Positions 4,130 through 32,044 of a DNA stretch of 64,000 nucleotides are shown in pieces. Under the pieces are notes generated by a model that had not been told where the DNA came from, did no database searches, and saw nothing but the letters and a program-made list of their open reading frames with translations. This DNA is from Nocardioides ochotonae (GTDB lineage: Bacteria > Actinomycetota > Actinomycetes > Propionibacteriales > Nocardioidaceae), in assembly GCF_011420305.2 (NCBI RefSeq), contig NZ_CP061769.1, forward strand, positions 2,529,001 through 2,593,000, written 5' to 3'. The first letter of the stretch is position 1, and the number at the start of each line of letters is the position of its first letter. The position numbers and the translations under genes are program-made.

Positions 4130-4290
4130 CGGCGCCGGCTCCGCTCGCTCGTGGCGTGCGGGGTGCGGACGGCAACCGCGATGACGGGGGTACGCATGAG
4201 GGCTCCTCGGGACGACTCGGGACGCTCGGACGCTAGTCGCGACCCGCGTCACACGGCGAGGGCTTCCCGCTCACCGAAAACGCCCGGCGC

Positions 4291-4743: not shown

Positions 4744-4804
4744 GGCGCTCCTCCAACGAACCGGCGGTGCTCCCGAGTCTGGCAGCGCGCGCCGACACCG
4801 GCGC

Positions 4805-14763: not shown

Positions 14764-16074
14764 CTAGTCCCCGCCGGCCACGGTGAGCGGCCGCGAGCCG
14801 CCGTCCGGGTCCGCCAGCGAGGTGCCGCCGGGGCCGAGCACCTTGGCGTCGTACATCGCCTCGTCGGCGCGGCGCAGGAGGTCGCCGACCTCGTGGGGCG
14901 GCGCGAGCGCGACGCCGATGCTGGCACGGACCACCAGACGACCGCCGGCGTGCTCGATGGGCTCCTGGATCGCGCGGTGCAGCCGGGCCGCCACCTCGGC
15001 GAGCGCGGCCTCGCCGACCTGCTCGCAGATGATGGCGAACTCGTCGCCACCGAGCCGGCCGACGGTGTCGCTGGCCCGCACGGTCTCGCTCAGCCGGCGG
15101 CCGACCTCGACGAGCACGGCGTCGCCGGCGGCGTGCCCCAGGGTGTCGTTGACGGTCTTGAAGCCGTCGAGGTCGAGGAAGAGCACCCCGACCGTGCCGC
15201 TCGCGTGGCGGTGCACGCGCGCCGAGGCCATCTCCAGCCGGTCGTGGACCAGCTGGCGATTCGGCAGCCCGGTGAGCGCGTCGTGCAGCGCCAGGCGCCG
15301 CAGCTCGTCCTCGGCGCGGCGGGCCTCGGTCACGTCGGAGACCCGCAGCAGCCACCCGGTGTCGCCGCTGGCGCGCAGCGAGCTCCGGCTCGCGCTGAGC
15401 AGCCGGGTGGTGCCGTCCGGGTGCGGGTAGCTGCTCTGGCGCTGCACCGGCTCCTCGGCGCCGGCCTGCTCCTGCACGGGGACCGGTGGCAGACCGAGCA
15501 GCGCGTGCAGGTCCGTGTGCTCGAGCTCGGCGGTGTCGCGACCGAGCAGCTCGGTGAAGCGGGCGTTGGCGAGCACGACCGCGCCGTCCGGGCCGGTCAC
15601 CGCGATGCCCTCCCCCGCGGTCTCGACGATCGCCCGGTAGACGGTGGCGTCGGCGGGCTGGGCGTCCGCGACGGCGTGTGGCGCGGGATCGGCGGCGCGC
15701 CGGTCGCCGGAGTCGGCGCGCACCACGGCAGTCACACCGACGGCCTCGCCGCCGTTGCGCAGGGTGTCCAGGGAGACCGCCGCGCTGCCCAGTGCACCAT
15801 CGCGCAGCCGCCGGCGGGTGACGTACGTCGGGACCGCCTCGCCGCCCAGGGCGCGCGCGACCGGGGAGCAGGACGGCGAGCCGACCGGGCCGTCGGCGAT
15901 GTCGGGCAGCACCGTCGCCACCGGACGGCCGACCAGGTCGGCGGGGACCCAGCCGAGCACGGCCTGCGTCGCGGCGCTCGCGAAGACGATCTGCTGGTCG
16001 GTGTCCACGCAGAGGATGCAGTCGTCGGCCGCCAGGGAGACGCCGCTCAGCACGACGTGTGCGTCCAACACCAT
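14764..16074 (-). CDS. PAS-GGDEF diguanylate cyclase
   Basis: A 436-residue soluble protein: a PAS domain (about 8-110), a second PAS (about 150-260) and a C-terminal GGDEF domain with LHDALTGLPNRQLVHDR, FLDLDGFKTVNDTLGH and an intact RLGGDEFAII active site near residue 340. It should convert two GTP to c-di-GMP. The start is the ATG behind GGGAGG; a GTG eight codons upstream is an alternative. It lies 85 bases downstream of pilD on the same strand, so it may be read from the pilMNO operon, although a perfect 18-bp palindrome (16132-16149) sits in the gap. Together with the RsiG-like protein and WhiG-like sigma factor it is a plausible c-di-GMP source for pilus control. Confidence 0.92.
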   Translation of the reverse strand: MVLDAHVVLSGVSLAADDCILCVDTDQQIVFASAATQAVLGWVPADLVGRPVATVLPDIADGPVGSPSCSPVARALGGEAVPTYVTRRRLRDGALGSAAVSLDTLRNGGEAVGVTAVVRADSGDRRAADPAPHAVADAQPADATVYRAIVETAGEGIAVTGPDGAVVLANARFTELLGRDTAELEHTDLHALLGLPPVPVQEQAGAEEPVQRQSSYPHPDGTTRLLSASRSSLRASGDTGWLLRVSDVTEARRAEDELRRLALHDALTGLPNRQLVHDRLEMASARVHRHASGTVGVLFLDLDGFKTVNDTLGHAAGDAVLVEVGRRLSETVRASDTVGRLGGDEFAIICEQVGEAALAEVAARLHRAIQEPIEHAGGRLVVRASIGVALAPPHEVGDLLRRADEAMYDAKVLGPGGTSLADPDGGSRPLTVAGGD

Positions 16075-16131
16075 CGGACCTCCCGGCAGCGGCGCCACCG
16101 AGGCGCCGCGGTCAAGTGCCCGAGGCTAGTG

Positions 16132-16159: not shown

Positions 16160-16963
16160 TCATGTGAGCCCCACCACGCCGAGGTAGCCCTCCCACAGCG
16201 ACGCCCCGGCGAACATGCCGAGCACCGCCCCGCTCAGGAGGAACGGCCCGTGCGGCACCCGCGCCCGTCGGCCGACCCGACCGGAGGCGATCAGGGCGAC
16301 GCCCACCAGCCCGCCGATGACGAAGCCGGCGCCCAGGCCGACCAGGCTCGGTCCCCAGCCCAGCCACCCGAGGAGCAGTCCGAGCACCGGCGCCAGCGCG
16401 ACGTCGCCCAGCCCCATGCCTCGGCCCGCGGTCCCCAGCCAGATCCCGCCGTACACCGCCAGCCAGACACCGGCCGAGGCCACGGCCGGCCACAGCACGT
16501 CGGGGCCGTTCAGTGCGGCGTCGAGGCCCAGGGCGGCCAGCGCCCCGCACGCGGCGACGCCGGTGATCGGGAACGGCAGCCGCTGGTGCTCGAGGTCGAT
16601 CAGGAAGTGTGCGACGCCGGCGGCGAGGACCACCACGGCACCGAGCGTGTACGCCGAGACGCCGAAGCGCCAGCCGGCGAGCACGAACACCAGGCCGGTG
16701 CTCAGCTCGACCAGCGGGTAGCGCACCGAGATCGGCTCCGCGCAGCCGCGACAGCGTCCGCGCAGCAGCAGCCAGGACACCACGGGCACGTTGTCCCGGG
16801 GCCGGACCGGGTCGCCGCAGGCAGGGCAGGCCGAGCCCGGCGAGGCGATGGAGAGCCCGAGCGGGACCCGGTGCACGACGACATTGAGGAAGGATCCGAT
16901 CAGCAGTCCGAGCACGCCGAGCAGCGCCAGGAAGGTGCCGCCCGGAAGACTGGCGGCGTTCAC
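16160..16963 (-). CDS. pilD: Prepilin peptidase (type IV leader peptidase)
   Basis: A 267-residue polytopic membrane aspartyl protease that cleaves the leader of type IV prepilins and N-methylates the new N-terminus. The N-terminal methyltransferase-like loop holds the four zinc-site cysteines C46-x2-C49 and C71-x2-C74. The catalytic aspartates are D123 in HFLIDLEHQRLP and D187 in the GLGD motif of GMGLGDVALAP. The length and eight or so membrane segments fit the full A24 family form. The GTG start overlaps the stop of the preceding gene (GTGA). It is the last clear pil gene of the leftward pilM-N-O operon. Its substrates should be the pilin at 32123 and the minor pilins at 28157-31904. Confidence 0.94.
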   Translation of the reverse strand: MNAASLPGGTFLALLGVLGLLIGSFLNVVVHRVPLGLSIASPGSACPACGDPVRPRDNVPVVSWLLLRGRCRGCAEPISVRYPLVELSTGLVFVLAGWRFGVSAYTLGAVVVLAAGVAHFLIDLEHQRLPFPITGVAACGALAALGLDAALNGPDVLWPAVASAGVWLAVYGGIWLGTAGRGMGLGDVALAPVLGLLLGWLGWGPSLVGLGAGFVIGGLVGVALIASGRVGRRARVPHGPFLLSGAVLGMFAGASLWEGYLGVVGLT

Positions 16964-17751
16964 GGCGACGGTGCGGATTCGAACGTCTGGAGCAGCACGC
17001 CCTGCTCGGCCGAGCCCAGCAGCGCGACCAGCTGCTCGCGCTGCTCGCGCACCGCCTGGGCCAGCATCTCGGCGCCCGTGATCGTCTCGGACGAACGGGG
17101 CACGAGGTCGCGGGCGAGGTCCCAGCGCAGCTGGACCGAGCCCAGGTCGTCCTCCCCCGCGAGCGACGCGGCGGCGACCAGGTAGGCCTCGAAGGTGGCG
17201 ACGTCGGCCTGCCGGGCCATCCGCGCCGCGGCCTCGTACTCGTGCTCCACGAGGAGCTCGCGGGCCACCGCCATGCAGTCGCCCGCCGCGCCGAGGAGCT
17301 CGACCACGAGCTGCTCGGCGGTGCGCTCCTCGAGCCGCTCCACCGCGTGCCCGTTGCGGCGCGCCTGCGAGGCCGGGAGGTCGATGAGGTGGTCGAGGCG
17401 CTGGAAGCCCTCGACGACCAGCTCGCGCACGGCGGCGTCGACGGTGCCGAGCAGCGCGTCCCGCGCGATCTGCACGATCTCGCGGGCGGTGACGTCGCCG
17501 CTCACCCGATCGGCGGCGGCCTCCATGGAGCGGGCCACGGCCGCACCCACGGCGGCGAGCTCGGCGTGCGGGTCGGAGGCCACCTGCAGGCCTTGGTCCC
17601 ACAGCACCTCCTCGAGCCCGTGGATCTCCACGGCCCAGGTGGTCAGCACGGCCGCCCACACCTCGCCACGGCGCGCGTAGCGCTGGGCGAGGTCGTCGAG
17701 ACGCTGACGCACGGGCGGCTGCTGGATGCTGGTGTGCTGGATCGCGGTCAT
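16960..17751 (-). CDS. Unknown protein of the T4P operon
   Basis: A 263-residue soluble, mainly helical protein without recognisable family motifs. It starts MTAIQHTSIQQPPVRQRLDDLAQRY and contains long amphipathic Ala/Glu/Arg-rich helices such as AEQLVVELLGAAGDCMAVARELLVEHEYEAAARMARQ. Both ends overlap neighbours by 4 bases, so it is translated as part of the pilM-to-pilD operon. A cytoplasmic structural or regulatory role in pilus assembly is a guess from context. Confidence 0.8.
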   Translation of the reverse strand: MTAIQHTSIQQPPVRQRLDDLAQRYARRGEVWAAVLTTWAVEIHGLEEVLWDQGLQVASDPHAELAAVGAAVARSMEAAADRVSGDVTAREIVQIARDALLGTVDAAVRELVVEGFQRLDHLIDLPASQARRNGHAVERLEERTAEQLVVELLGAAGDCMAVARELLVEHEYEAAARMARQADVATFEAYLVAAASLAGEDDLGSVQLRWDLARDLVPRSSETITGAEMLAQAVREQREQLVALLGSAEQGVLLQTFESAPSP

Positions 17752-18716
17752 GACCGGCTCCTCCCCTGGCTGTGGCTGGCGTCGCGGCGCGACCAGCGGG
17801 TGCTGCGGCGTGCGCCGCCCACCGGGACCGCGCCGACCGGTGCGATCCCCGGCACGGGAGCGACGGGCGCGATCTGCTCCGTGCCGTCGTCGTCGTGCCC
17901 GAGTGCGTCGACCTCGTCGTACGCCGCGGCCGGCGGCGGCTCGGGGACGGTCCGGGTGGCGGGCGCGGTGTCCTCCACCGGGGCCTCCGGGGCTGCCGGC
18001 TCGGCCGGGGCTGCGGAAGCGGCCGGGGCCGAGGCAGCGGGCGGGGCAGGTGGCGTCGAGAGCTCAGCGGGTCGCGGATGGGCGGGTGCCGCCAGCGCCG
18101 TACCGGCCGGGACGGTGGGCAGCACCGGGCGGGCCACGGTCTCGGTGGACTCCAGGCGCTCCACCGCGGCGACCACCCGGGCCATGGTGCGCGCCGGGGC
18201 CTCGTCGGGGGCGGTGCGACCGGCCAGCCCGCGAAGCGTCGCGGTGACCTGGCGCCGGTAGCGCGCGGCGTCCGCAGGCGTCGCCGCCTCCGGGCGGGCC
18301 GTACGGCGACCGGCCAGGTGCAGCGAGGGGCCGGCGGTCACGCTGACCTGCTCGGGCTCCTCGCCGGGTGCCGGGGCCGAGCTCAGCCGCTCCAGCGTCT
18401 GCTCGAGGGTGTGCACCTGGGCCCGCAGCCACCGCACCTCGACCTGGCCGTCGGGGTCCGCGTCGGTCCCCACCTCACCTCGGGCGTCGTGGACGGTGCC
18501 GACCAGCGGGTCGCCGGTGGAGCCGGCCTGCTCGACGTGGTCGAGGTGGCCGACCTCCCAGGTGTCCGCCCCGGCCGACGGCGACTGGGCCGCTGCCTCG
18601 CCCTCGACGGCGTCAGGCTCCGCCGCCGCGCGCCGCCGGCGCATCACGACCACCACCGACAGCAGCACGAGCACGGCGACAAGGCCGGCGACGGGCATCA
18701 GGTAGTCGGGTTGCAT
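17748..18716 (-). CDS. Unknown single-span membrane protein of the T4P operon
   Basis: A 322-residue protein with one N-terminal membrane helix (YLMPVAGLVAVLVLLSVVVVM, residues 5-25) followed by an RRRR stop-transfer. That predicts a short outside N-terminus and a large cytoplasmic tail. The tail has a predicted helix (DGQVEVRWLRAQVHTLEQTLERL), an alpha-helical middle (ARYRRQVTATLRGLAGR) and a Pro/Ala/Glu-rich low-complexity C-terminus ending in a basic stretch. It follows pilO by 69 bases and overlaps the next gene by 4. It sits where many T4P loci carry pilP, but has no lipobox and no PilP similarity I can see. Function unknown. Confidence 0.8.
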   Translation of the reverse strand: MQPDYLMPVAGLVAVLVLLSVVVVMRRRRAAAEPDAVEGEAAAQSPSAGADTWEVGHLDHVEQAGSTGDPLVGTVHDARGEVGTDADPDGQVEVRWLRAQVHTLEQTLERLSSAPAPGEEPEQVSVTAGPSLHLAGRRTARPEAATPADAARYRRQVTATLRGLAGRTAPDEAPARTMARVVAAVERLESTETVARPVLPTVPAGTALAAPAHPRPAELSTPPAPPAASAPAASAAPAEPAAPEAPVEDTAPATRTVPEPPPAAAYDEVDALGHDDDGTEQIAPVAPVPGIAPVGAVPVGGARRSTRWSRRDASHSQGRSRS

Positions 18717-18785: not shown

Positions 18786-19388
18786 TCAGGGCTTCGGGAC
18801 GGGCCGCATGACGAACATGCTGCCGACCACGGTCGTGGTGTAGTCGCCCTCGGTGCCGGTGAGGTCGACGGCGGTCACCAGGTAGGCGCGGTCCATGTCC
18901 TCGAGGTTCTCGAGGAGCCGGATGGTCTGGCCGTAGTCGCCCTGGACGCTGACGCTGACCTCCTGGCGGGCAAGCTGGTCGTTCGAGGGCACCGGGCTCG
19001 CGCTGGTGGCGCCGGTCGCCTGCTCGGCACCGCCGAGGGTGGGTGCGCTCGGGGACAGCGCGGTCACGCCCTCCGCACCGATCCCGGCGGCCACCGCGGC
19101 CTCGGTGATCTCGGCGAAGAGGCCCGGCTGGTCGGCGGTGGGCGGGAACTCCTTGGCCAGCTTCTTGGCGACCTTCTTGACCGGGCGGAGGTCCGCCTTC
19201 TGGCGCTGGAGGTTGGCCAGCTGGGCGGCCAGGGCCGCGTTCTGCTCGCGCACGATCTCGACCTGCTCGTTGGCCTCGGCCACCGCGTCGGTGCGGGGCC
19301 CCAGGACCAGCAGCCAGCCGAGCGCGGCGACGACCAGCAGCGCGAGGGCGCCCGCGATCTTCGTACCGGTGGCACTCTTCAGGTTCAC
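18786..19388 (-). CDS. pilO: Type IV pilus inner-membrane platform protein PilO
   Basis: A 200-residue bitopic protein: short cytoplasmic N-terminus, one membrane helix (IAGALALLVVAALGWLLVLGP, about 10-30), a coiled coil (AEANEQVEIVREQNAALAAQLANLQRQ) and a ferredoxin-like extracytoplasmic domain ending in VVGSMFVMRPV. This is the standard PilO plan and length. It pairs with PilN and links PilM to the pilus machine. The start overlaps the pilN stop by 4 bases. In this Gram-positive lineage there is no PilQ secretin, so the alignment complex probably ends at the membrane and wall. Confidence 0.9.
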   Translation of the reverse strand: MNLKSATGTKIAGALALLVVAALGWLLVLGPRTDAVAEANEQVEIVREQNAALAAQLANLQRQKADLRPVKKVAKKLAKEFPPTADQPGLFAEITEAAVAAGIGAEGVTALSPSAPTLGGAEQATGATSASPVPSNDQLARQEVSVSVQGDYGQTIRLLENLEDMDRAYLVTAVDLTGTEGDYTTTVVGSMFVMRPVPKP

Positions 19389-20143
19389 TTGTCCGCCTTC
19401 TCGTCGAAGAGCTCGTCCGCCAGGTCGACGTACTGCCCGCTGAAGACCTTCTCGGAGAGCCCGACCGAGCCGCTGAAGGCGACCCCGGTCGAGTCGGCCG
19501 ACGTGGTGGTCGTGATGAACGGCTCGACGAAGAGACCGTTCTCACCGAGCGCGATCACGAGCTCGCCGACGGCGGCCCGGCTGGCCGCGGTGCCGGCGAT
19601 CGACACGCAGCCCACGACCAGGCGCAGGTTGAACGGGTCCGGCCCGGGGCACGGCGACGCGACGGCCGCGGCCACGGCGTCCTCCGCGACCTCGCCCCCG
19701 TCCGCCGCCTGGACCGCCTTGAGCGCCCCAGCCAGGTCGGCGAGGGCGACGGTGAGGGTGTCGACCTTGGCGCTCTCGGGCAGTGCGTCCTGGAGTCCGG
19801 TGAAGACGCTGGAGAACCAGATCTCCCCCATCATCGTCGCCTGCAGGGCAGCGACCTGGGCGCGCACGCCACTGACGTAGGTCTGCACCGGCATCAGCTC
19901 GTTGACCTCGCCGGTGAGCTTGGCGGTCTGCACGGACTCGCGGTCCACGAGCCCCTCGGCGTCGAGCACGCGCTTGTGCTGGAAGCCGGTGAGGGCGACC
20001 AGGAGCACCAGAAGGGCGACGCCGGCGAGCACGAACTGGCGGCGCAGCTGGCGCACCGCGATCAGCTCGAACGCCGCGGGCGAGAGCAGGTTGACCGTGG
20101 GCAGCGACGGGGCGGGGTGCCCGGCCGGGCGACGCCGGCTCAT
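19385..20143 (-). CDS. pilN: Type IV pilus inner-membrane protein PilN
   Basis: A 252-residue bitopic protein. The short cytoplasmic N-terminus contains LPTVNLLSP, matching the conserved INLLP-type segment by which PilN docks into PilM. A membrane helix (FVLAGVALLVLLVALTGF) and a coiled coil plus periplasmic-type domain follow. It is somewhat longer than the roughly 180-200 residues usual for PilN because of an Ala/Gly-rich insert around 150-190. It overlaps pilM upstream and pilO downstream by 4 bases, so all three are coupled. Confidence 0.9.
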   Translation of the reverse strand: MSRRRPAGHPAPSLPTVNLLSPAAFELIAVRQLRRQFVLAGVALLVLLVALTGFQHKRVLDAEGLVDRESVQTAKLTGEVNELMPVQTYVSGVRAQVAALQATMMGEIWFSSVFTGLQDALPESAKVDTLTVALADLAGALKAVQAADGGEVAEDAVAAAVASPCPGPDPFNLRLVVGCVSIAGTAASRAAVGELVIALGENGLFVEPFITTTTSADSTGVAFSGSVGLSEKVFSGQYVDLADELFDEKADK

Positions 20144-21240
20144 CGGGCGCCCACGCAGAGGCCGGTCGGCACCGTGAGGGCGCCGGACTGGTCGGGGGCG
20201 AGGTCGGCGGCGCCGACCCGCAGGTGGCCACGCACGTCCAGCGGCGCGGTGTCGAGCCCCAGCCGCAGGCTCAGCAGCTGGTCGAGGCCGCTCAGGCGGG
20301 AGCCCGCACCGGCGAGGAGCACTCGCGCGATGCCGACGGACTCGGCACCGCCCAGCGGGTCCGCCGTCGAGCTGCGATAGAAGTCCAAGGTGGTCTCGAT
20401 CTCGGCGACGAGCGCCTCGGTGGCCTCGACGATCGTGCCGAGCGCCGGGTGCGACTCCGCGGGGACGAGCGGGTCGGTGGAGGTGGCCGGCGTGCCCACG
20501 AGCCCGAGCGCGACCTTGGTGCGCTCGGCGTCCTCCCAGGTCCAGTCGTAGCGCTGCTGCACCGCGCGGGTGATCGAGTCGCCGCCGAGCCCGGAGATGA
20601 TCCGCACGAACCGCGGGACCCCGCCGGCGTGCACCACCACGGAGGTGATGTCGGCGCCGATGTCGACGATCGCCTCGACGTCCCCGGCGGGCGCGAGCCC
20701 ACCCGGCGTACGCGCCCGGACGAGCGCGAACGGCATCAGGTCGACGGCGTCGACGTGCAGCTTGGCGCCGTGCACCGCAAGCACGAAGGAGTCCACCATC
20801 TCCCGCGTGGCCGCCACGAGGAGCACCCGCGCCTTGCGCTGGAGCACCCCCTGGGCGTCGGGGACCTCGGGCTCGCCAAGCAGGTAGTAGTCGAGGTTGG
20901 CGTCCTCGACCGGGAAGGGCAGGACGTCCTGGACCTGGTAGCGCAGCGCCTTGCCGAAGTCCTCCGGCGGCATCCACTCCAAGTCCATCTGACGCACCAG
21001 CACGCCGGCGTTCGCGATGCCGAGGGTGACGCGGCGGTGCCCGAACTTGCCCACCGCCCACAGCTCGCGCAGCGCCTCGGACAGCCGGGTCGGGTCGACC
21101 ACCGTCCCGGCGCGGACCACGCCGCTGGGAAGGGGGACCTCGGCGAAGCGCTTGAGGGCGAACGAGCGTCGCTTCGGCACCAGCTCGGCTGCCCGGACAC
21201 CGGACGTGCCGATGTCGAGGCCGATCAGCGTGGATGACAT
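20140..21240 (-). CDS. pilM: Type IV pilus actin-like ATPase PilM
   Basis: A 366-residue cytoplasmic FtsA/actin-fold protein. The phosphate-1 loop is LIGLDIGTSGVRAAEL at the N-terminus, the phosphate-2-like segment is AIVDIGADITSVVVHAGG, and the conserved PilM stretch ALRYQVQDVLPFPVEDANLDYYLLG lies near residue 95. The last part has LLAGAGSRLSGLDQLL, the adenosine motif. PilM recruits PilN and connects assembly ATPases to the platform. The ATG at 21240 lies about 40 bases after the -10 element of a WhiG/FliA-type promoter (21280-21307), making this the first gene of the leftward pilM-N-O-x-y-pilD operon. Confidence 0.94.
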   Translation of the reverse strand: MSSTLIGLDIGTSGVRAAELVPKRRSFALKRFAEVPLPSGVVRAGTVVDPTRLSEALRELWAVGKFGHRRVTLGIANAGVLVRQMDLEWMPPEDFGKALRYQVQDVLPFPVEDANLDYYLLGEPEVPDAQGVLQRKARVLLVAATREMVDSFVLAVHGAKLHVDAVDLMPFALVRARTPGGLAPAGDVEAIVDIGADITSVVVHAGGVPRFVRIISGLGGDSITRAVQQRYDWTWEDAERTKVALGLVGTPATSTDPLVPAESHPALGTIVEATEALVAEIETTLDFYRSSTADPLGGAESVGIARVLLAGAGSRLSGLDQLLSLRLGLDTAPLDVRGHLRVGAADLAPDQSGALTVPTGLCVGAR

Positions 21241-21279: not shown

Positions 21280-21307
21280 TGATCGGCGACTCCGGACGAC
21301 GACTTGA
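21280..21307 (-). promoter_or_regulatory. Predicted WhiG/FliA-type promoter of the pilM operon
   Basis: On the minus strand: TCAAG (21303-21307), exactly 15 bases, then GCCGATCA (21280-21287). This matches the WhiG/FliA consensus (TAAAG-like -35, GCCGATAA -10). It is back-to-back with the pilT promoter at 21348-21375 and 40 bases from the pilM start. Confidence 0.75.
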
Positions 21308-21347: not shown

Positions 21348-21375
21348 TCAAGTGCGACGTGCGAGATGCCGAAGA
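21348..21375 (+). promoter_or_regulatory. Predicted WhiG/FliA-type promoter of pilT-rsiG-pilB
   Basis: TCAAG (21348-21352), 15 bases, GCCGAAGA (21368-21375). Same element and spacing as four other T4P start regions here. It would give a 5' leader of roughly 110 bases before the TTG start of pilT. Confidence 0.75.
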
Positions 21376-21490
21376 CCCGGATAAGAAGACCCAGATGTCG
21401 GCGGCCCAGCCGCCTGCACCATCGTTCTCCCGGGATCTGGCTCGGGCCGCCCCACCACTTCCCCCCGCTCCGCCACAAGGAGGCCCCGCC

Positions 21491-22594
21491 TTGAGTCCAC
21501 AGATCACGCCGTACCTGCGTGCCGTCGTCCACAACGGCGGGTCCGACCTGCACCTCAAGGCCTCGGTCCCCCCGCGGATCCGGATCACCGGCTCGCTGGT
21601 CTCGCTGCAGGTGGACGCGCTCGCCCCCGACGCCGTGGCAGAGATGGTGCGGGAGACCATGAGCGACGACGTCGCCGCGCACTTCGACGCGACCAACGAG
21701 GCCGACTACGCGCTCGTGGTCGAGGGGGTCGGGCGGTTCCGGGTCAACGCCTTCCGCGCTCGCGGCGAGGTGGGTGCCGTGCTGCGTCTCGTCGGTGACG
21801 ACCCGACCCCGCTGCACGAGCTCGGCATGCCCGACGTCGTACGCCGTCTGGCGCTGGAGTCGCGCGGACTGGTGCTGGTCACGGGGCCGACCGGGTCGGG
21901 CAAGTCGACCACGCTGGCCGGCATGGTGGACGCGGTGAACGAGAGCCGCGCCGTGCACGTGCTGACCCTCGAGGACCCGATCGAGATCGTGCACCGCGAC
22001 AAGCTCGCCAGCGTGACCCAGCGCGAGGTCGGCACCGACACCGGCGACTGGTCCACCGCCATGCGCGCCGCGATGCGCCAGGACCCCGACGTCATCCTCG
22101 TGGGCGAGATGCGCGACGCCGAGACCGTCCGCAGTGCGCTCGCGGCCGCCGAGACCGGTCACCTGGTGCTCTCCACGCTGCACACCAAGGACGCCAAGGA
22201 GACCGTCGGGCGCATCATCGAGTTCTTCCCCGCCCACGAGCACCAGCAGATCCGCCATGCGCTGTCGTCCTCGCTGCGCGGCATCGTCTGCCAGCGCCTG
22301 GTCCCGCGGATCGACGGCGGCAGCCGCACCGCGGTGATGGAGATCGCCGTCAACACCCCGCGGTTGGCCGAGGCGATCGCCGAGCCGGACCGCACCGCGC
22401 TGATCCCCGAGATCGTCGCCGACGGCGCCTACTCCGGCATGCAGACCTTCGACCAGCACCTGGTCGCCCTCGTCCAGCAGGGCGAGGTGTCCGTCGAGGT
22501 CGCGATGGCCTGCAGCAGCCGCCCGCACGACTTCTCGGTGATGCTCAAGAGGGCCGGCGGCGACGTCGCGGTCCGAGACGCGCGGGTGTCGTGA
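21491..22594 (+). CDS. pilT: Type IV pilus retraction-type ATPase PilT (first copy)
   Basis: A 367-residue hexameric GspE/PilT ATPase. The N-terminal PAS-like domain begins PQITPYLRAVVHNGGSDLHLKAS, typical PilT. Walker A is GPTGSGKST, the Asp box LTLEDPIEIVH, Walker B DPDVILVGEMRD, the His box TGHLVLSTLHTKDA. The start is probably the TTG at 21491 with AAGGAGG 7 bases before it; the frame is open to 21359 but that part covers the promoter. It should power pilus disassembly. Its stop overlaps the RsiG-like gene start (TGATG), so a pilus motor and an anti-sigma factor are translationally coupled. Confidence 0.92.
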   Translation: MSPQITPYLRAVVHNGGSDLHLKASVPPRIRITGSLVSLQVDALAPDAVAEMVRETMSDDVAAHFDATNEADYALVVEGVGRFRVNAFRARGEVGAVLRLVGDDPTPLHELGMPDVVRRLALESRGLVLVTGPTGSGKSTTLAGMVDAVNESRAVHVLTLEDPIEIVHRDKLASVTQREVGTDTGDWSTAMRAAMRQDPDVILVGEMRDAETVRSALAAAETGHLVLSTLHTKDAKETVGRIIEFFPAHEHQQIRHALSSSLRGIVCQRLVPRIDGGSRTAVMEIAVNTPRLAEAIAEPDRTALIPEIVADGAYSGMQTFDQHLVALVQQGEVSVEVAMACSSRPHDFSVMLKRAGGDVAVRDARVS

Positions 22595-23127
22595 TGACGG
22601 CCGCGCGCGCCTCCCGCAAGGCCGGCCCGGTGCGCCGGACCAGCCTGGCCCCCGCCGAGCCGTCCCCCCACCTCAGCGAGCTCGACCTGGTGGCCCTGCG
22701 GTCCTACCGGCTGCGGCTCGAGGCGGAGGAGGAGCGGGTCTCCTACTGGCGCCGCCTCGTGCACGCGCGCACCGACGTGCTCCAGGCCCAGTCGACGGCG
22801 GGCTTCACGCTCAGCGTCGCCGCGCTCGCCCGGGCTCTCGGGGACACCGCCACCGGGCGCACCCGACGGGTGTTGCTCAGCGTGAAGCCGGCGGACCCGC
22901 TGCCCGAGCTGCCGGAGCTGGCCGAGATGTGGGTGACCCGCGTCGACACCGACGACCCCGAGGCGGTCACCGACGCGCTCCAGCGCCTCGCCGAGGCCGA
23001 GCACCAGCTCACGGCGTACCGACGGGCGCTGCACGAGCGCATCGACGAGGCGACCGGCGAGCTGATCCTGCGCTACCGCGAGGACCCGCGGGCAGCGCTC
23101 ACCCTGATCCCCCAGGAGAGTCCATGA
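22594..23127 (+). CDS. rsiG: RsiG-like c-di-GMP-responsive anti-sigma factor
   Basis: A 177-residue soluble helical protein. Helix 1 (VSYWRRLVHARTDVL) carries E46-x3-S50-x2-R53-x3-H57-x3-D61. Helix 2 near the C-terminus carries E136-x3-T140-x2-R143-x3-H147-x3-D151. These match, with the same spacing, the E-x3-S-x2-R-x3-Q-x3-D signature with which Streptomyces RsiG binds c-di-GMP; here His replaces Gln in both copies and Thr replaces Ser in the second. The flanks ELDLVALRSYRLRLEAEEE and ELILRYREDP also look RsiG-like. In Streptomyces, RsiG loaded with c-di-GMP sequesters the sigma factor WhiG. Here it sits between pilT and pilB, overlapping both, 11 kb from a WhiG-family sigma gene. I infer a c-di-GMP-gated anti-sigma factor for pilus genes. 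The GTG one codon upstream is an alternative start. Confidence 0.82.
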   Translation: MTAARASRKAGPVRRTSLAPAEPSPHLSELDLVALRSYRLRLEAEEERVSYWRRLVHARTDVLQAQSTAGFTLSVAALARALGDTATGRTRRVLLSVKPADPLPELPELAEMWVTRVDTDDPEAVTDALQRLAEAEHQLTAYRRALHERIDEATGELILRYREDPRAALTLIPQESP

Positions 23128-24821
23128 ACGCCCCCGCTCCCACGGTCGGCGAGATCTCGCGGATCCTGCTCGACCACGGCCTGATCGACGAGGACCAGCT
23201 GCGGGTCGCCACCGACGTGGCCCGGGAGGGGTCGCGCTCGGTGGTCGAGGTGCTCCTCGAGCAGGGCACCGTGGACCGCGTCGCCGTGCTGCGCACGACG
23301 GCGGCCGCGGCCGGGCTGGCCTACGTCGACCTCACCGACTTCCAGGTCGACGCCTCGGCGGCCTCGCTGCTGCCCGCGGACTACGCCCACCGGGCGGCGG
23401 TGCTGCCGCTGAGCCGTGACGGCGGCGAGCTGCTGGTGGCGGTGTCGGTGCGCCAGGCCGGCAACATCGAGCTCAAGGACGACCTGACCCGGATCACCCG
23501 CCAGCGGATCCGGTTCGCGATCGCCAACCGGGCCGACATCATCACCAAGATCGGCCAGATCTACCGCGCCGAAGGCGAGCTGCAGGACCTGACCTCCGAC
23601 CTCACGGTCGATGAGGACAGCGGCGGCGACGCGCTCGCGGACCTGACCGAGGTCTCCGACGAGGCGCCGGTGGTGCGCTTCGTCAACCTGCTCATCGAGC
23701 AGGCCATCACCGACCGCGCCTCCGACATCCACATCGAGCCCGGCGAGCACGAGCTGCGCGTCCGCTACCGCATCGACGGCGTGCTCGTCGACGCGCACCG
23801 CTCCCCCAAGAACATCCAGAACGGCGTGATCTCCCGGCTCAAGATCATGGCGGAGATGAACATCGCCGAGCGGCGGGTGCCGCAGGACGGCCGGATGTCG
23901 ATCACCCACCGCGGCCGCCGCATCGACCTGCGTGTCGCCGCGCTGCCGACGGTGTGGGGCGAGAAGGTCGTGGCCCGAATCCTCGACAACTCCAACACCC
24001 GGCTCGGGCTCGAGGACCTGGGCTTCAGCGCCGACAACTTCGCGCGCTTCCGCAGCTCCTTCACCAAGCCCTACGGGATGATCCTGGCCACCGGCCCCAC
24101 CGGCTCGGGCAAGTCGACGACCCTCTACGCCACCCTGAACCAGCTGAACCGGCCCGAGGTCAACGTGATCACCGTCGAGGACCCGGTGGAGTACCGGCTC
24201 CCCGGCATCAACCAGGTGCAGGTCAACCAGAAGGCCGGCCTCACCTTCGCCGCGGCGCTGCGCAGCATCCTGCGCTCCGACCCCGACATCGTGCTGATCG
24301 GTGAGATCCGCGACCACGAGACCGCCCAGATCGCGGTGGAGTCCGCGCTCACCGGCCACCTCGTGCTGTCCACGCTGCACACCAACGACGCGCCCTCCGC
24401 GGTCACCCGGCTGGTCGAGATGGGCATAGAGCCGTTCCTCGTCGGCTCGGCGATGGACGCGGTGCTGGCCCAGCGGCTGTGCCGCACGCTGTGCGGCCAC
24501 TGCGCGGAGGAGTACGTGCCCGAGCGGGCCGAGCTCGAGCGGATCGGCTTCCCGCTCCCCGCGGACGGGTCCCTGCCGGTGCTGCACCGCCCGGTCGGAT
24601 GCTCGCGCTGCGCGCGCACCGGTTACCGCGGCCGGATGGCGCTGCACGAGGTGATGACGGTGGGCGAGGAGATCGCCCGGCTGGCGGTCACCCGCGCCTC
24701 CACCGACGAGATCGCGCGGGCGGCGTACGCCGACGGCATGGTGGGCCTCAAGCAGGACGGGTGGGCCAAGGTCGCCGCGGGCAAGACCTCGATCGAGGAG
24801 GTCCTGCGGGTCGTGGCCTAG
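23124..24821 (+). CDS. pilB: Type IV pilus assembly ATPase PilB
   Basis: A 565-residue pilus extension ATPase. An N-terminal MshEN/T2SSE_N domain (1-150, starting GEISRILLDHGLIDEDQLRVA) precedes the catalytic GspE core. Walker A is GPTGSGKST near residue 325, the Asp box VITVEDPVEYRLP, Walker B DPDIVLIGEIRD and the His box TGHLVLSTLHTNDA. A tetracysteine zinc site CRTLCGHC...CSRCARTGYRGR distinguishes PilB from PilT. MshEN domains bind c-di-GMP in some bacteria, but the motif is imperfect here, so binding is possible rather than established. The ATG overlaps the stop of the RsiG-like gene (ATGA), completing the pilT-rsiG-pilB operon. Confidence 0.94.
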   Translation: MNAPAPTVGEISRILLDHGLIDEDQLRVATDVAREGSRSVVEVLLEQGTVDRVAVLRTTAAAAGLAYVDLTDFQVDASAASLLPADYAHRAAVLPLSRDGGELLVAVSVRQAGNIELKDDLTRITRQRIRFAIANRADIITKIGQIYRAEGELQDLTSDLTVDEDSGGDALADLTEVSDEAPVVRFVNLLIEQAITDRASDIHIEPGEHELRVRYRIDGVLVDAHRSPKNIQNGVISRLKIMAEMNIAERRVPQDGRMSITHRGRRIDLRVAALPTVWGEKVVARILDNSNTRLGLEDLGFSADNFARFRSSFTKPYGMILATGPTGSGKSTTLYATLNQLNRPEVNVITVEDPVEYRLPGINQVQVNQKAGLTFAAALRSILRSDPDIVLIGEIRDHETAQIAVESALTGHLVLSTLHTNDAPSAVTRLVEMGIEPFLVGSAMDAVLAQRLCRTLCGHCAEEYVPERAELERIGFPLPADGSLPVLHRPVGCSRCARTGYRGRMALHEVMTVGEEIARLAVTRASTDEIARAAYADGMVGLKQDGWAKVAAGKTSIEEVLRVVA

Positions 24822-24843: not shown

Positions 24844-24871
24844 TCAAGTGGGGTGGTCGGGGTGCCGAAGA
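24844..24871 (+). promoter_or_regulatory. Predicted WhiG/FliA-type promoter of pilT2-pilC
   Basis: TCAAG (24844-24848), 15 bases, GCCGAAGA (24864-24871), identical in both boxes to the promoter before pilT at 21348. It lies in the 90-base gap after pilB and about 40 bases before the GTG start of the second pilT-like gene. Confidence 0.75.
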
Positions 24872-24911: not shown

Positions 24912-26390
24912 GTGTCCGACCTGATCCGGAGCCGTTTCGGCCTCCCGACGACCACGCCGCGCACCGACGCGCCGCGGACCGACGAGGCGCGCCCCGACGT
25001 GCCCCGCCTGGACGCGCCGCCGGCGCCGAGGCCCGCGCCGACCCACGCCGCGGTCCCGCCCGCGCCGACCCACGCCGCGGTCCCGCCCGCGCCGCTCGAC
25101 CTGCCGATGGCACCGCCGCCGCTTCCCCTCGACGTACCGATCGCGGCGCCGCTGGGTGTCGCCACCCTGGCTCCCCCGCCGGCCGTGCCGGCACCGACCA
25201 TCACGATGCCGACCCTCCTGGAGCCGGCGGCCTCGCGTCCGGCGGCTGCCGCGCCCGCACCGCGCGCGCCCGAGCCGGAGCCTCCGGCGGAGTCCGCGCC
25301 GCTGGCCCTCGACGACCTCCTCCTCGGGCTGGTCGACTCGGGTGGCTCCGACCTGCACCTGACCCGCGGCGCGCCGCCGATGATCCGCCTGCGCGGTGAC
25401 ATGCGGCCGCTGGAGGGCTACGAGCCGCTGGAGGCCAAGCAGCTTCAGGACCTGATGTACGGCGTGATGACCGAGCGCCAGCGCAAGGAGTTCGAGGAGG
25501 AGCTCGAGCTCGACTTCGCCTACGCCGTCCCCGGGCAGGCGCGCTTCCGTGTCAACGTGTTCCAGCAGCGCGAGGCCGTGGGCGCCGTGATGCGCCTGAT
25601 CCCGTGGGAGATCAAGCCGCTCGAGGACCTCGGCATGCCGCCGGTCATCAACAGCTTCACCGAGCTCAAGCGCGGCCTGGTGCTGGTCACCGGCGCGACC
25701 GGCTCCGGCAAGTCGACCACGCTGGCGGCGATGATCGACCGGATCAACCGGACCCGCAGCGGACACATCGTCACCATCGAGGACCCGATCGAGTTCCTCC
25801 ACGAGCACCGCCGCTGCCTGGTGAACCAGCGCGAGGTCGGCGAGGACACCCATGGGTTCCAGGCCGCCCTCAAGCACGTGCTGCGCCAGGACCCCGACGT
25901 GATCCTGGTCGGCGAGCTGCGTGACCTCGAGACGATCTCGGTCGCGCTGACCGCCGCCGAGACCGGTCACCTGGTCTTCGCGACCCTGCACACCCAGTCG
26001 GCGCAGGACACGATCTCCCGCGTGGTCGACGTCTTCCCGGCCGGGCAGCAGCAGCAGATCCGCACCCAGCTGGCCGCGACCCTGCAGGCCGTGGTCTGCC
26101 AGAACCTGGTCAAGACCTCCGACGGCAAGGGCCGCGCCGCCGCCGTCGAGGTGATGGTCTGCAACCCCGGCATCCGCGCGATGATCCGCGACGACAAGCT
26201 CAACCAGATCCAGGGCTCCCTCCAGGCCGGCGCCAAGGACGGGATGCAGACGCTGAACTCGCACCTCGCGGCGCTGGTGAAGGCCGGGCGGATCACCTTC
26301 GAGGCCGGCCTCGAGGCCTGCTCGGACCGTCACGACTTCGAGACCCTGGCGCGGTCGGCGAGCGTGCGCCCGACCCCCGCCTGGTCCTGA
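24912..26390 (+). CDS. PilT-family ATPase with proline-rich N-terminal extension (second copy)
   Basis: A 492-residue PilT/PilU-like ATPase. Residues 1-135 are a Pro/Ala-rich linker with a duplicated nonapeptide APTHAAVPP, unlike PilT at 21491. The catalytic core starts at LDDLLLGLVDSGGSDLHLTRG and has Walker A GATGSGKST, Asp box VTIEDPIEFLHEH, Walker B DPDVILVGELRD, His box TGHLVFATLHTQSA and the PilT-type GIRAMIRDDK segment. GTG start with GGAGG directly upstream. It precedes pilC by 65 bases and has its own WhiG-type promoter. Two PilT homologues with different N-termini suggest distinct roles (PilT versus PilU-like accessory motor); which one retracts cannot be decided here. Confidence 0.9.
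   Translation: MSDLIRSRFGLPTTTPRTDAPRTDEARPDVPRLDAPPAPRPAPTHAAVPPAPTHAAVPPAPLDLPMAPPPLPLDVPIAAPLGVATLAPPPAVPAPTITMPTLLEPAASRPAAAAPAPRAPEPEPPAESAPLALDDLLLGLVDSGGSDLHLTRGAPPMIRLRGDMRPLEGYEPLEAKQLQDLMYGVMTERQRKEFEEELELDFAYAVPGQARFRVNVFQQREAVGAVMRLIPWEIKPLEDLGMPPVINSFTELKRGLVLVTGATGSGKSTTLAAMIDRINRTRSGHIVTIEDPIEFLHEHRRCLVNQREVGEDTHGFQAALKHVLRQDPDVILVGELRDLETISVALTAAETGHLVFATLHTQSAQDTISRVVDVFPAGQQQQIRTQLAATLQAVVCQNLVKTSDGKGRAAAVEVMVCNPGIRAMIRDDKLNQIQGSLQAGAKDGMQTLNSHLAALVKAGRITFEAGLEACSDRHDFETLARSASVRPTPAWS
25034..25094 (+). repeat. 27-bp tandem repeat in the PilT-like linker
   Basis: Two identical 27-bp units (25034-25060, 25061-25087) and a 7-base partial copy encode the nonapeptide APTHAAVPP twice. 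Replication slippage could change linker length without breaking the frame. Confidence 0.85.
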
Positions 26391-26455: not shown

Positions 26456-27676
26456 ATGGCAGCACCCACCACGACGACGTACGCCTACAAGGTCCGCGAC
26501 CAGCGGGGCAAGATGGTCGAGGGCAAGGTCGAGGCCCCCAACGAGGCCGCCGTCGCCGAGAAGCTGCTCTCGATGGGCTACGTGCCGCTCGACGTGCGGC
26601 TCGCCAACGCCGGGTTGCAGCGCGAGCTGTCCTTCGGGCCGCCGAAGCGGATCAAGCTCAAGGACCTCGCGATCTTCTCGCGGCAGTTCTCCACGATGAT
26701 CAACGCCGGACTGACGATGCTCCGTGCGCTGACGATCCTCTCCGAGCAGGTCGACAGCCTCGAGCTGCGCAAGGTCCTGCGCGCGGTCAAGCAGGACGTC
26801 GAGGCCGGCTCGAGCCTCTCGGGGGCGATGGGCAAGCACACCGCGTTCCCGCCGATCATGGTCAACCTGGCGAAGGCCGGCGAGGCCGGCGGCTTCCTGG
26901 ACCGGGCGATGAACCAGGTCGCCGACAACTTCGAGAAGGAGGTCAAGCTGCGCGCCAAGATCAAGTCCGCGATGACCTACCCGGTCGTCGTGTTCGTGAT
27001 GGCGATCGTGATGTGCGGCGCAATGATGGTGTTCGTCGTGCCGACCTTCGAGGGCATCTTCACCAGCCTCGGCGGCCAGCTCCCCTTCCCCACCCGGATC
27101 CTGCTGATGATCGCCGGCACGATGAAGTACGTCGTCCCGATCACGGTCGTCGCGATCGTGGCGTTCGTCGCCTGGTGGCGCAAGTACAACCGCACCGAGC
27201 GGGTGCGCAACGTCTGGGACCCGCTGAAGCTGAAGATGCCGGTCTTCGGCGGCCTGGTGCAGAAGCTCGCCCTGGCGCGCTTCGCCCGCAACCTCGGCAC
27301 CCTGATGGGCTCCGGTGTCCCGATCCTGCAGTCCCTCGACGTGGTCGCCGACACCACCGGCTCCATCGTCGTCACCCGCGCGCTCGCCGACGTCCGTGAC
27401 TCCGTACGCCGCGGCGAGAGCCTCGCCGGCCCGCTGGCGGACCACCCCATCTTCCCCACGATGGTGCAGCAGATGATCGCCTCCGGCGAGGAGTCCGGCG
27501 CCATCGACCAGATGCTGCACAAGGTCGCCGATTTCTACGACTCCGAGGTCGAGGCCACCACCGAGCAGCTCAGCGCCATGGTCGAGCCGCTGATGATCGC
27601 CTTCCTCGGCGTCATCGTCGGCAGCATGCTAGTCGCGCTGTACCTGCCGATCTTCAACGTCGGCAACCTGCTCTGA
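26456..27676 (+). CDS. pilC: Type IV pilus platform protein PilC
   Basis: A 406-residue polytopic platform protein. Two T2SSF domains are visible: residues about 68-192 (LAIFSRQFSTMINAGLTMLRALTILSEQ) and 272-395 (LARFARNLGTLMGSGVPILQSLDVV), each ending with membrane helices. The N-terminal TTTTYAYKVRDQRGKMVEGKVEAPNEAAVAEKLLSMGY repeats the usual PilC start. PilB and PilT drive pilin insertion and removal through this protein. It shares the promoter at 24844 with the upstream ATPase, and a strong hairpin at 27713-27748 ends the transcript. Confidence 0.94.
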   Translation: MAAPTTTTYAYKVRDQRGKMVEGKVEAPNEAAVAEKLLSMGYVPLDVRLANAGLQRELSFGPPKRIKLKDLAIFSRQFSTMINAGLTMLRALTILSEQVDSLELRKVLRAVKQDVEAGSSLSGAMGKHTAFPPIMVNLAKAGEAGGFLDRAMNQVADNFEKEVKLRAKIKSAMTYPVVVFVMAIVMCGAMMVFVVPTFEGIFTSLGGQLPFPTRILLMIAGTMKYVVPITVVAIVAFVAWWRKYNRTERVRNVWDPLKLKMPVFGGLVQKLALARFARNLGTLMGSGVPILQSLDVVADTTGSIVVTRALADVRDSVRRGESLAGPLADHPIFPTMVQQMIASGEESGAIDQMLHKVADFYDSEVEATTEQLSAMVEPLMIAFLGVIVGSMLVALYLPIFNVGNLL

Positions 27677-28156: not shown

Positions 28157-29869
28157 TCAGTAGGCGGCCGAGATCTCGCCGTACGCCTTGATGCCCCAGG
28201 AGGAGCGCACCGGGTCCAGGAAGTACGGCGGCGGCGCGTAGCGCAGCCGGGTGTCGTACTCGTAGTTCTTCTCGTACCCGGTGCCCGACGTCAGCGCCAC
28301 CGGACCGCGGTAGCGCTGGGCGAACGAGCCGAAGAGGTTGAGCTTCCCGAGCCCGCTCGTCGAGCCCTTGTCCCAGGCCTGCACGTTGAAGCTGTGCATC
28401 AGGGTCAGGATGGACGCGTGGACGACCGCGTTCTTGAACAGCCCCTTCGACTCGGGCCTGTTCAGGTCGGAGAAGTTGTTGCCGGACTTCTTCACCGGGT
28501 GGTAGATCTTCACCGAGTTCCCGGCGATCAGGCCCAGCGAGTCGACCCCGGTCTTGCCGCCGTTGTAGGTCAGGTGGTCGGTGATGATGATGTTGTTGTC
28601 CGCCACGAGCGTCAGGCGGCCCTTGAGCGTCCCCTCGACGTACAACGTGCCGTAGCGGCAGCGCGCGTCGCTGAGCGTCTCGTTCCAGTCCTCGGCCTGC
28701 GGGTAGACGCTGATCGTCCCTGTCTGGCACGAGCCGTTCGTGTTCTGCTTCACCGTGAACGGCGCGCTGGCCGGGATGTCCTGCACGATGATCAGGCTGT
28801 TGTGCGGGATCGTCATCGTCTGGGACGTGTTCGGCGAGCTCGCGAAGCTCGCCGCGTTGCCGCACCCGGGGTTGAGCGTCGTGCGCGAGTAGGGACTCCA
28901 GACCTCCATCGTGGAATGGGTGGCCGAGGTCGCGATGAGCTTGATCCGCGTCGGGCCGGTGTAGAGGCAACCGGTCCTGGCGACGAGCGGGTTGGTCCCG
29001 TTCACGTACTGCCGCAGGTCACCGATCGTGGTCGGCAGCTCGATCTCGGGGCGGTAGCTGACGCCCTTCTCGAAGATCGGGTTGCTGCCGCCGGCCTTCT
29101 CGTAGCACTTCTTGGCGCTGCCGGTCTTGGCACAGTCCGGCCAGGAGGTCGTGGTCGTGCCCTTGAACCGGACGGCGCCACCGGTGAGGATCCGGTCGTT
29201 GGTGTGCATCGGGCCGTTGATCACGTCGCCGCCCGCGAACTGAATGTTGACGCAGTCGGAGTGCCGGGGACTGCTGCTCGGCCACCAGTAGCGCACGCAG
29301 TTGTTGGCCGCCCACGTGGTGCTGCGGGGGTTCCCGTTGTAGGTGGAGTCGTTCGCCGGGTCGACCTCCTCGTACACCGTGTAGTAGAGGAACTCACCGA
29401 AGCCACCGCGCCGCAGCACGGTCTGCACCGACCGGGTGACCGTGCCCACCCGGCCGGTGGCCGTCAGCTTGATGGTCCCGTTGACGGGCGTGCTGCCCGT
29501 CTCCGCCTCGTAGTGGTACTCGGCGCGGTCGGCACCGGGCACCTTCACCCAGCCGACCGGCGTGCCCGCGCCCCAGGCGCACGAGCTGACGTTCGGCCGC
29601 TTCATCGCCGGGTTCGAGCAGTCGGTCGCGGTCTGCCAGTAGAGGTCGTTCTTGTTCAGCCGCGCCAGGTAGTCGTCGACGCCGGCCTCAGCGGCGGCGA
29701 GCGCCTGGTTCCAGTCGCTGGAGTGCCGGGCGACGCGGTTGGTGTTCATCGCAGCCGTGGCTGCCACGGTGGCCAGGATGATCAGCACCATCGTCGTCCC
29801 GAGCACCACGATCAGTGCCGACCCCTCGTCCCGATTGCGCACGCGCCAGCGACTCATGATCTCCCCCAT
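28157..29869 (-). CDS. Large PilX-like pilus tip/minor pilin protein
   Basis: A 570-residue exported protein with a pilin-like N-terminus: a basic leader ending RDEG, then SALIVVLGTTMVLIILATVAATAAMN, and a typical PilX-type AALAAAEAGVDDYLARL segment. The rest is a Ser/Thr/Asn/Tyr-rich extracellular domain with several cysteines that could form disulphides. The leader lacks the G-FT-E consensus, as PilX-like proteins often do. Start at 29869 overlaps the preceding stop (TGATG); ATG at 29857 behind GGGGGAG is an alternative. It ends the leftward minor-pilin operon. I infer a tip or assembly-priming subunit, perhaps an adhesin; no ligand motif is recognisable. Confidence 0.78.
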   Translation of the reverse strand: MGEIMSRWRVRNRDEGSALIVVLGTTMVLIILATVAATAAMNTNRVARHSSDWNQALAAAEAGVDDYLARLNKNDLYWQTATDCSNPAMKRPNVSSCAWGAGTPVGWVKVPGADRAEYHYEAETGSTPVNGTIKLTATGRVGTVTRSVQTVLRRGGFGEFLYYTVYEEVDPANDSTYNGNPRSTTWAANNCVRYWWPSSSPRHSDCVNIQFAGGDVINGPMHTNDRILTGGAVRFKGTTTTSWPDCAKTGSAKKCYEKAGGSNPIFEKGVSYRPEIELPTTIGDLRQYVNGTNPLVARTGCLYTGPTRIKLIATSATHSTMEVWSPYSRTTLNPGCGNAASFASSPNTSQTMTIPHNSLIIVQDIPASAPFTVKQNTNGSCQTGTISVYPQAEDWNETLSDARCRYGTLYVEGTLKGRLTLVADNNIIITDHLTYNGGKTGVDSLGLIAGNSVKIYHPVKKSGNNFSDLNRPESKGLFKNAVVHASILTLMHSFNVQAWDKGSTSGLGKLNLFGSFAQRYRGPVALTSGTGYEKNYEYDTRLRYAPPPYFLDPVRSSWGIKAYGEISAAY

Positions 29870-30594
29870 CAGTTGTCCACCAGGACGTTGATCTCGGCAT
29901 TGGGCAGGCGCACCCGCTTGAACACGGTCGCCGGCTTGTAACGGGTGTTGCCGCGCACGGTCTGCACCTTCAGCGCGATCTCCACGCTGGACACCAGCGG
30001 CAGCTCGACGTCACCCAGGCTCGCCAGGGTGATCAGAGTGCCGCCGGAGTCGTAGTAGAAGAACGTGTCCACCGCCGGCCAGGCCAGGCCCCGGGCCAGC
30101 ACCCGCTTCTGCACAGAACAGGTCGGCAGAGTCGCGTCGCAGTAGCTGTAGGACTGGGTGGCGGTGTTGATGATCGGACGCTGGATCCGCTGCACGAGCT
30201 GTCCCGAGGTCTGCGCGGCATGCGTGTCGCGCTCGAGCTCGAGGGTCACCAGCAGTGGCGCGGAGCCGACGGTGTTGAGGTTGGCGTAGAACTGCACCCG
30301 GGTGCGCGTGGCCGCCTTGAGCGCGGTGTCCGCACAGGTGGGGCAGGCCAGCTCCGTGGCCTGCTCCGGCAGCACTGCGGTGCGCAGCACCTTGCTGACC
30401 GCGTCGACCGAGACCTGGCTCTGGGTGGCGTTGTCCAGCCTGTTCTCCAGCGCCGCGGTGGTACGGATGACCAGCACCGCGGTGGTCCCGAGACCGGTCA
30501 TCAGGATGGTGAAGATCGCCATCGCGACCAGAAGCTCGGCGAGGGTCATGCCCCGGTCACCGAAGGCGCCCGGCGAGCATCGCCGGCGGGTCAT
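29869..30594 (-). CDS. Minor pilin, PilW/PilV-like
   Basis: A 241-residue prepilin. The leader MTRRRCSPGAFGDRG is followed by the cleavage-site context G-MTLAELLVAMAIFTILMTGLG, with the conserved Glu at position 5 of the mature protein. Prepilin peptidase (16160-16963) should process it. The body is a single globular domain with two CxxC-like pairs (ELACPTCAD, YCDATLPTCSV). Four-base overlaps with both neighbours put it in the middle of the three-gene minor pilin operon. Confidence 0.85.
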   Translation of the reverse strand: MTRRRCSPGAFGDRGMTLAELLVAMAIFTILMTGLGTTAVLVIRTTAALENRLDNATQSQVSVDAVSKVLRTAVLPEQATELACPTCADTALKAATRTRVQFYANLNTVGSAPLLVTLELERDTHAAQTSGQLVQRIQRPIINTATQSYSYCDATLPTCSVQKRVLARGLAWPAVDTFFYYDSGGTLITLASLGDVELPLVSSVEIALKVQTVRGNTRYKPATVFKRVRLPNAEINVLVDN

Positions 30595-31941: not shown

Positions 31942-31969
31942 AGATCGGCTGCCGGACGTCCTCACTTGA
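31942..31969 (-). promoter_or_regulatory. Predicted WhiG/FliA-type promoter of the minor pilin operon
   Basis: Minus strand: TCAAG (31965-31969), 15 bases, GCCGATCT (31942-31949). Divergent from the pilin promoter at 32017, mirroring the divergent pair at 21280/21348. Confidence 0.75.
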
Positions 31970-32016: not shown

Positions 32017-32044
32017 TCAAGCCGGGGACCGACGGGGCCGACAT
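32017..32044 (+). promoter_or_regulatory. Predicted WhiG/FliA-type promoter of the major pilin
   Basis: TCAAG (32017-32021), 15 bases, GCCGACAT (32037-32044). About 75 bases before the pilin ATG. The -10 differs from the other copies only in its last three bases. Confidence 0.72.

Follow-up and report, generated by a model that had tools for sequence, protein, structure and literature searches.

RsiG–WhiG has been described as the sole known sigma/anti-sigma complex that is set by c-di-GMP. In Streptomyces, a twin-motif RsiG controls sporulation, and in Rubrobacter, a single-motif, homodimeric RsiG is linked to pili (PMC8325347); the latter link had been mentioned in a preliminary description of the locus studied here, and it is real. 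The S. venezuelae complex, RsiG-(c-di-GMP)2-WhiG (PDB 6pfj and 6pfv), contains a twin-motif monomer folded as a two-helix coiled coil, as is predicted for the RsiG homologue of Nocardioides ochotonae, and its cognate WhiG contacts c-di-GMP through three residues that are identical in the Nocardioides sigma factor. However, this complex governs sporulation, and its RsiG is about 32% identical to Nocardioides RsiG and belongs to the SYVRR...QGR subfamily, whereas the Nocardioides protein is of the SYWRR...HAR subfamily. The R. radiotolerans complex, (RsiG)2-(c-di-GMP)2-WhiG (7lq2-7lq4; PMC8325347), has the same partners and, as appears to be the case in Nocardioides, type IV pilus genes as its target. 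It differs in that its RsiG is a single-motif homodimer and in that the -35 element of its promoters is TAAA, compared with CAAG in Nocardioides. Additionally, in Actinoplanes missouriensis, FliA/sigma-28 reportedly controls both type IV pili and flagella, which would be another instance of a WhiG-like sigma factor directing pilus genes in an actinomycete. Actinoplanes is without RsiG (PMC8325347).

The window analyzed here is a stretch of 64,000 nucleotides of the N. ochotonae genome (GCF_011420305.2, contig NZ_CP061769.1, positions 2,529,001 to 2,593,000), and all coordinates refer to it unless a different locus is named. Among the papers searched, none joins Nocardioides, type IV pili and c-di-GMP. 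The RsiG–WhiG switch itself is known, but a twin-motif form placed on pili and encoded inside the operon appears not to have been described.

Organization of the pilus cluster

The genes pilT1 (21395–22594, +; TIGR01420, 434 bits), encoding a PilT/PilU-family ATPase, rsiG (22594–23127, +) and pilB (23124–24821, +), encoding an extension ATPase with a TIGR02538 score of 611 bits that is slightly below the cut-off of 675.65, are followed by pilT2 (24912–26390, +; TIGR01420, 490 bits), encoding a second PilT-family ATPase, and pilC (26456–27676, +; NF052607, GspF/PilC family), encoding the platform protein. Divergent from these are pilM (20140–21240, -; PF11104), pilN (19385–20119, -; start uncertain), assigned by position and a weak match to PF05137 (19.9 bits), and pilO (18786–19388, -; PF04350). 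The same operon includes a pilD-like prepilin peptidase gene (16160–16924, -; start uncertain), which had zero matches in the NCBIfam profile search and is assigned by reading of its sequence, with homologues kept in the clusters of relatives. The last gene of the pilM operon encodes a PAS-PAS-GGDEF diguanylate cyclase (14764–16098, -; PF00990, 152.9 bits) with an intact RLGGDEF, and a separate gene encodes a PAS-GGDEF-EAL protein (12210–14735, +; PF00563, 245.4 bits), a likely phosphodiesterase in which the GGDEF site is degenerate (GADTF). Three minor pilin or PilX-type genes (28157–31904, -; PF07963 twice, PF14341) and the major pilin gene (32123–32539, +; TIGR02532 prepilin signature) lie further along. 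Four additional proteins of the cluster (16960–17751, -; 17748–18716, -; 32654–33073, +; 33070–33477, +) had no family match in the libraries searched, and homologues of at least three of them occupy the same places in relatives.

A twin-motif RsiG homologue is encoded between pilT1 and pilB

The rsiG open reading frame begins with ATG at 22594, and its stop codon ends at 23127, giving a product of 177 aa. The pilT1 stop and the rsiG start overlap in TGATG, and the end of rsiG overlaps the pilB start in ATGA, with an AGGAG located within rsiG; the reported position of the gene between pilT and pilB, overlapping both, was thus borne out at each junction. The two c-di-GMP signatures that had been read in the protein were also found residue for residue. 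Motif 1, E46-x3-S50-x2-R53-x3-H57-x3-D61 (codons 22729–22776, +), has the sequence EERVSYWRRLVHARTD and matches E(X)3S(X)2R(X)3[Q/H](X)3D exactly, and motif 2, E136-x3-T140-x2-R143-x3-H147-x3-D151 (codons 22999–23046, +), has the sequence EHQLTAYRRALHERID, with T instead of S. Among all six-frame, stop-to-stop frames of at least 100 residues in the whole window (88,861 residues), RsiG is the sole frame to match E-x3-[ST]-x2-R-x3-[QH]-x3-D, and it does so twice; two matches were obtained in 0 of 200,000 shuffles of its sequence. Motif 1 is nearly invariant in 45 homologues (E, R and D in all 45, S in 44, H or Q in 44). At motif 2, T or S and R are likewise present in 45/45, the first position is E in 37/45, the H/Q position is H in 34 and F in 11, and the last position is D in 40/45.

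A profile search, which the preliminary description had proposed as a check, matched the protein to Pfam PF22802 (RsiG) over two stretches, scoring 58.9 bits where the cut-off is 27. Weak NCBIfam matches to the ParD (15 bits) and PatB (11 bits) families were dismissed as coiled-coil noise. In a sequence search of the PDB, RsiG alone matched S. venezuelae RsiG from end to end (E 5e-7) and Rubrobacter RsiG across helix 1, and a profile of 45 relatives searched against the whole PDB retrieved RsiG chains exclusively. The protein, with 177 aa and two motifs, is not of the single-motif Rubrobacter type (one motif, about 100–130 aa).

The predicted structure is consistent with these results. In an AlphaFold model built from 45 sequences, with a mean pLDDT of 82.9, residues 32–69 and 122–163 form two long helices (pLDDT about 90–97), each carrying one motif. 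The top four Foldseek matches of the model are the four RsiG chains (probability 1.00), and VIA-align superimposed it on 6pfv_T with Z 11.3 over 149 residues (TM 0.54/0.57), whereas the highest Z among unrelated helical proteins was 9.0; a Z of about 11 proves little by itself among helical bundles, and is persuasive when combined with the sequence evidence. The predicted fold is an antiparallel two-helix coiled coil of the RsiG kind, which agrees with the fold anticipated for this protein beforehand.

In a tree, the SYWRR...HAR and SYVRR...QGR subfamilies of RsiG are split with a support of 100/100. A genome search found a single RsiG gene in the N. ochotonae genome. A second RsiG copy was reported in just one genome of an earlier set (PMC8325347). 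In the class, RsiG was found in 77 genomes, and about 50 of these, as counted by eye from the match list, appear to have two RsiG genes at distant places, one copy being of the Streptomyces type and the other of the SYWRR type.

The probable sigma partner

The protein encoded at 33589–34332 (+), previously put forward as a candidate sigma partner, was identified as WhiG. It scores 232 bits against TIGR02479 (FliA_WhiG; cut-off 189.6), has Pfam sigma regions r2, r3 and r4, and its best PDB match is S. venezuelae WhiG (E 2e-69); its score of 277.8 against the WhiG equivalog PRK06288 is under the cut-off of 343 for that model. It is the only FliA/WhiG sigma factor of the genome to exceed the family cut-off. 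In S. venezuelae WhiG, the sigma2 residues K57, G61 and R62 contact c-di-GMP (PMC8325347). They align with K38, G42 and R43 of the Nocardioides protein, which are invariant in 17 homologues.

Predicted WhiG-type promoters

The sequence TCAAG-N15-GCCGA occurs at five sites in the window, all of which are intergenic, one ahead of each pilus transcription unit. Two of these are divergent: one precedes pilT1-rsiG-pilB (21348–21375, +; TCAAG-N15-GCCGAAGA), and one precedes the pilM-N-O...pilD-GGDEF operon (21280–21307, -; TCAAG-N15-GCCGATCA). The others are ahead of pilT2-pilC (24844–24871, +), the minor pilin operon (31942–31969, -) and the major pilin gene (32017–32044, +). Because the first of these predicted promoters overlaps the longer possible start of pilT1 (GTG 21359), the ATG at 21395 is the more likely start. 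No WhiG-type site was found in the window ahead of whiG itself or for the EAL gene at 12210–14735.

The textbook flagellar/WhiG consensus is TAAA-N15-GCCGATAA, and TAAA is also the -35 element in Rubrobacter (PMC8325347). The window sites share its -10 element (GCCGAT) and its N15 spacing, and their -35 element, CAAG, differs from TAAA. Candidate sites of the form CAAG-N15-GCCGA[TCA] are present ahead of all pilus units, and the strict TAAA-N15-GCCGATAA is absent. A search for the latter with up to three mismatches was uninformative (5 window matches vs 3.3 expected).

The pattern was first spotted by eye in the window, and its enrichment there is thus partly circular; the relatives provide the fair test. 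A matrix derived from relatives alone recovered the same five window sites, with scores of 18.8–27.1 and the next best at 14.1. Among relatives, clusters that carry RsiG show a sharp preference for the N15 spacer (75 sites), and other spacings have at most 7 sites, with the exception of 29 sites at a spacing of 21; this second peak was taken as a conserved coding stretch and set aside as a promoter signal, and 6 sites with this spacing also occur in RsiG-less clusters. Positions beyond the ten fixed ones, which were not selected for, also agree in relatives, namely a C preceding TCAAG, a T following GCCGA, and a purine 11 bases past the last A of GCCGA (G in 49/65), which resembles a transcription start. 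Site density is 2.7 per 20 kb in RsiG-bearing clusters vs 0.2 in clusters without RsiG and WhiG, with a P of 7e-4 that is only indicative, because the 24 loci of the test set are phylogenetically non-independent and two of them overlap. The suggestion that rsiG is under the control of its own target sigma factor thus gains support both from the predicted promoter at 21348–21375 ahead of pilT1-rsiG-pilB and from the near absence of such sites in pilus clusters that have neither protein.

Exact sites are few in some RsiG-bearing clusters (zero in L143; one each in L139, L163 and L167). In the Sporichthya-like clusters, which belong to another family, both divergent promoters are present in a slightly altered form, as read by eye from printed sequences. 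Several relatives (L112, L114 and L117) have a site directly ahead of the corresponding GGDEF gene. One pilus cluster without rsiG and whiG (L134, genome G063) has a single exact site, at 7741–7765 of that locus, ahead of pilM; this may be a relic, a chance match, or a target of another sigma factor.

Genome-wide, 42 of 47 exact TCAAG-N15-GCCGA matches are outside the cluster, nearly all within coding sequence and three not. A search for TCAAG-N15-GCCGATGA with 2 mismatches was set aside, as its 369 genome matches mostly reflect Lys...Ala-Asp/Glu codons.

Linkage and co-occurrence of rsiG and whiG

Relatives of the locus were found in Nocardioides, Aeromicrobium and Sporichthya. Most of them likewise have pilM divergent from pilT1-rsiG-pilB, with rsiG located in the pilT1-pilB gap in Nocardioides, Aeromicrobium and Sporichthya-like clusters, and whiG lies further along the pilus cluster in those relatives whose locus extends to it. 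In genomes without pilus genes, rsiG adjoins whiG (L119, L120, L123, L127, L131, L159, L160 and L088). One of these, L119, is a metagenome bin labelled Acidobacteria with a 60% identical RsiG, and its adjacent rsiG-whiG pair may reflect either mis-binning of the contig or transfer beyond the phylum. Two genomes have kept the pilus cluster with rsiG elsewhere: in G220 (L145), rsiG is outside the pilT1-pilB gap and adjoins whiG, and on contig 11 of G188 the two genes are close together, with rsiG probably likewise outside the gap. In G220, and probably G188, it is as if the rsiG-whiG pair had moved as a unit.

Among 215 congeneric genomes, RsiG was found in 31 and a high-scoring WhiG in 30, with 29 having both (Fisher P 2e-32); the genomes that deviate, G306 and G325, are fragmented draft assemblies. 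Pilus clusters of this kind are present in 28 of the 31 RsiG genomes and in 33 genomes overall, and the five that are without RsiG are also without WhiG. As judged from gene content, this co-occurrence and co-loss is explained by a sigma partner and not by a motor regulator. Beyond this group, none of 20 loci sampled across the phylum (13 picked as probable single-motif and 7 as twin-motif or longer) had rsiG within 10 kb of pil genes, although distant pil genes may have been missed by the queries.

Proposed circuit and alternative explanations

The model that we consider very probable is that c-di-GMP-armed RsiG sequesters WhiG and thereby silences the pilus, with rsiG and the cyclase gene being WhiG targets themselves. 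At high c-di-GMP, the motif-bearing helices of RsiG would pair as an antiparallel coiled coil and bind a c-di-GMP dimer. The armed RsiG would then wrap WhiG and keep it off RNA polymerase, so that all five WhiG-type promoters in the pilus cluster would be silent. If c-di-GMP drops, WhiG would be freed to transcribe pilM-N-O...pilD-GGDEF, pilT1-rsiG-pilB, pilT2-pilC, the minor pilin genes and the pilin gene. Because rsiG and the diguanylate cyclase gene lie in the putative WhiG-target operons, switching on the pilus would yield both more anti-sigma factor and more c-di-GMP, a negative feedback that would make the switch self-limiting. A feedback loop of the same kind has been suggested for Rubrobacter, and WhiG promoters are present ahead of several DGC/PDE genes in R. 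radiotolerans (PMC8325347). We infer that RsiG binds c-di-GMP and forms a c-di-GMP-dependent complex with WhiG, with which linkage and co-occurrence agree, and that WhiG uses the five predicted promoters. The sign of the effect, with pili off at high c-di-GMP, is presumed by analogy with Streptomyces and Rubrobacter.

The position of rsiG between pilT1 and pilB, with translational overlap with both, would also fit direct action of RsiG, as a c-di-GMP receptor, on the PilT/PilB motors and not on a sigma factor, and c-di-GMP binding is known for motors of the MshE type. This is very unlikely, however, given that rsiG adjoins whiG where pilus genes are missing, that the RsiG-less pilus clusters are also without WhiG, and that rsiG has left the gap to lie beside whiG in G220, the pair being close in G188 as well. 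A comparably low probability is assigned to a working RsiG–WhiG switch in which transcription from the pilus promoters depends on a different sigma factor and rsiG resides in the operon for co-expression only. The departure of the -35 element from the Rubrobacter consensus is in its favor, but the -10 element and spacer match those of the flagellar/WhiG consensus, pilus clusters devoid of WhiG have hardly any such sites, and the genome has a single FliA/WhiG sigma factor above the cut-off. Least probable of all is that the RsiG fold has been kept and its c-di-GMP dependence lost, so that WhiG is bound constitutively: the weaker conservation of motif 2 among homologues (positions E136 and D151, and F at the H/Q position) could be read in this way, yet all ten motif positions are intact in the RsiG examined here (the second motif has T in place of S), and WhiG has kept the residues that contact c-di-GMP.

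The c-di-GMP-dependent sequestration of WhiG by RsiG is thus preferred. In Nocardioides, the gene for the twin-motif RsiG is physically within the pilus operon, downstream of a promoter that its own sigma factor is predicted to use; this would separate the structural change from one motif to two from the change of target from pili to spores. We lean, with less assurance than for the model itself, towards SYWRR being a separate paralogous RsiG subfamily, distinct from the sporulation RsiG of Streptomyces, that in Nocardioidaceae and Sporichthya-like bacteria is built into the pilus operon. Controlled, like a diguanylate cyclase, by the sigma factor that it binds, it would form a closed, self-limiting c-di-GMP circuit. 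If this reading is true, pilus control by RsiG–WhiG is not peculiar to the single-motif form of Rubrobacter, and would be a use of the switch that recurs and is perhaps the older one. The proposed circuit is compact and testable in many culturable Nocardioides, and the promoter consensus is offered for reading WhiG regulons in this group.

Other proteins possibly connected to the circuit

The best promoter-like site beyond the pilus cluster (score 25.3; G000:C1 near 3277338) precedes a gene (L170, about 1933–5281, -) whose product, a secreted protein roughly 1,100 residues long, has fibronectin/Ig-like repeats and could be an adhesin of the same regulon. Additionally, the N-terminus of PilB (23124–24821) has a weak match to an MshE-related c-di-GMP-binding domain (20 bits vs a cut-off of 38), and c-di-GMP might act on the pilus motor too by this route.
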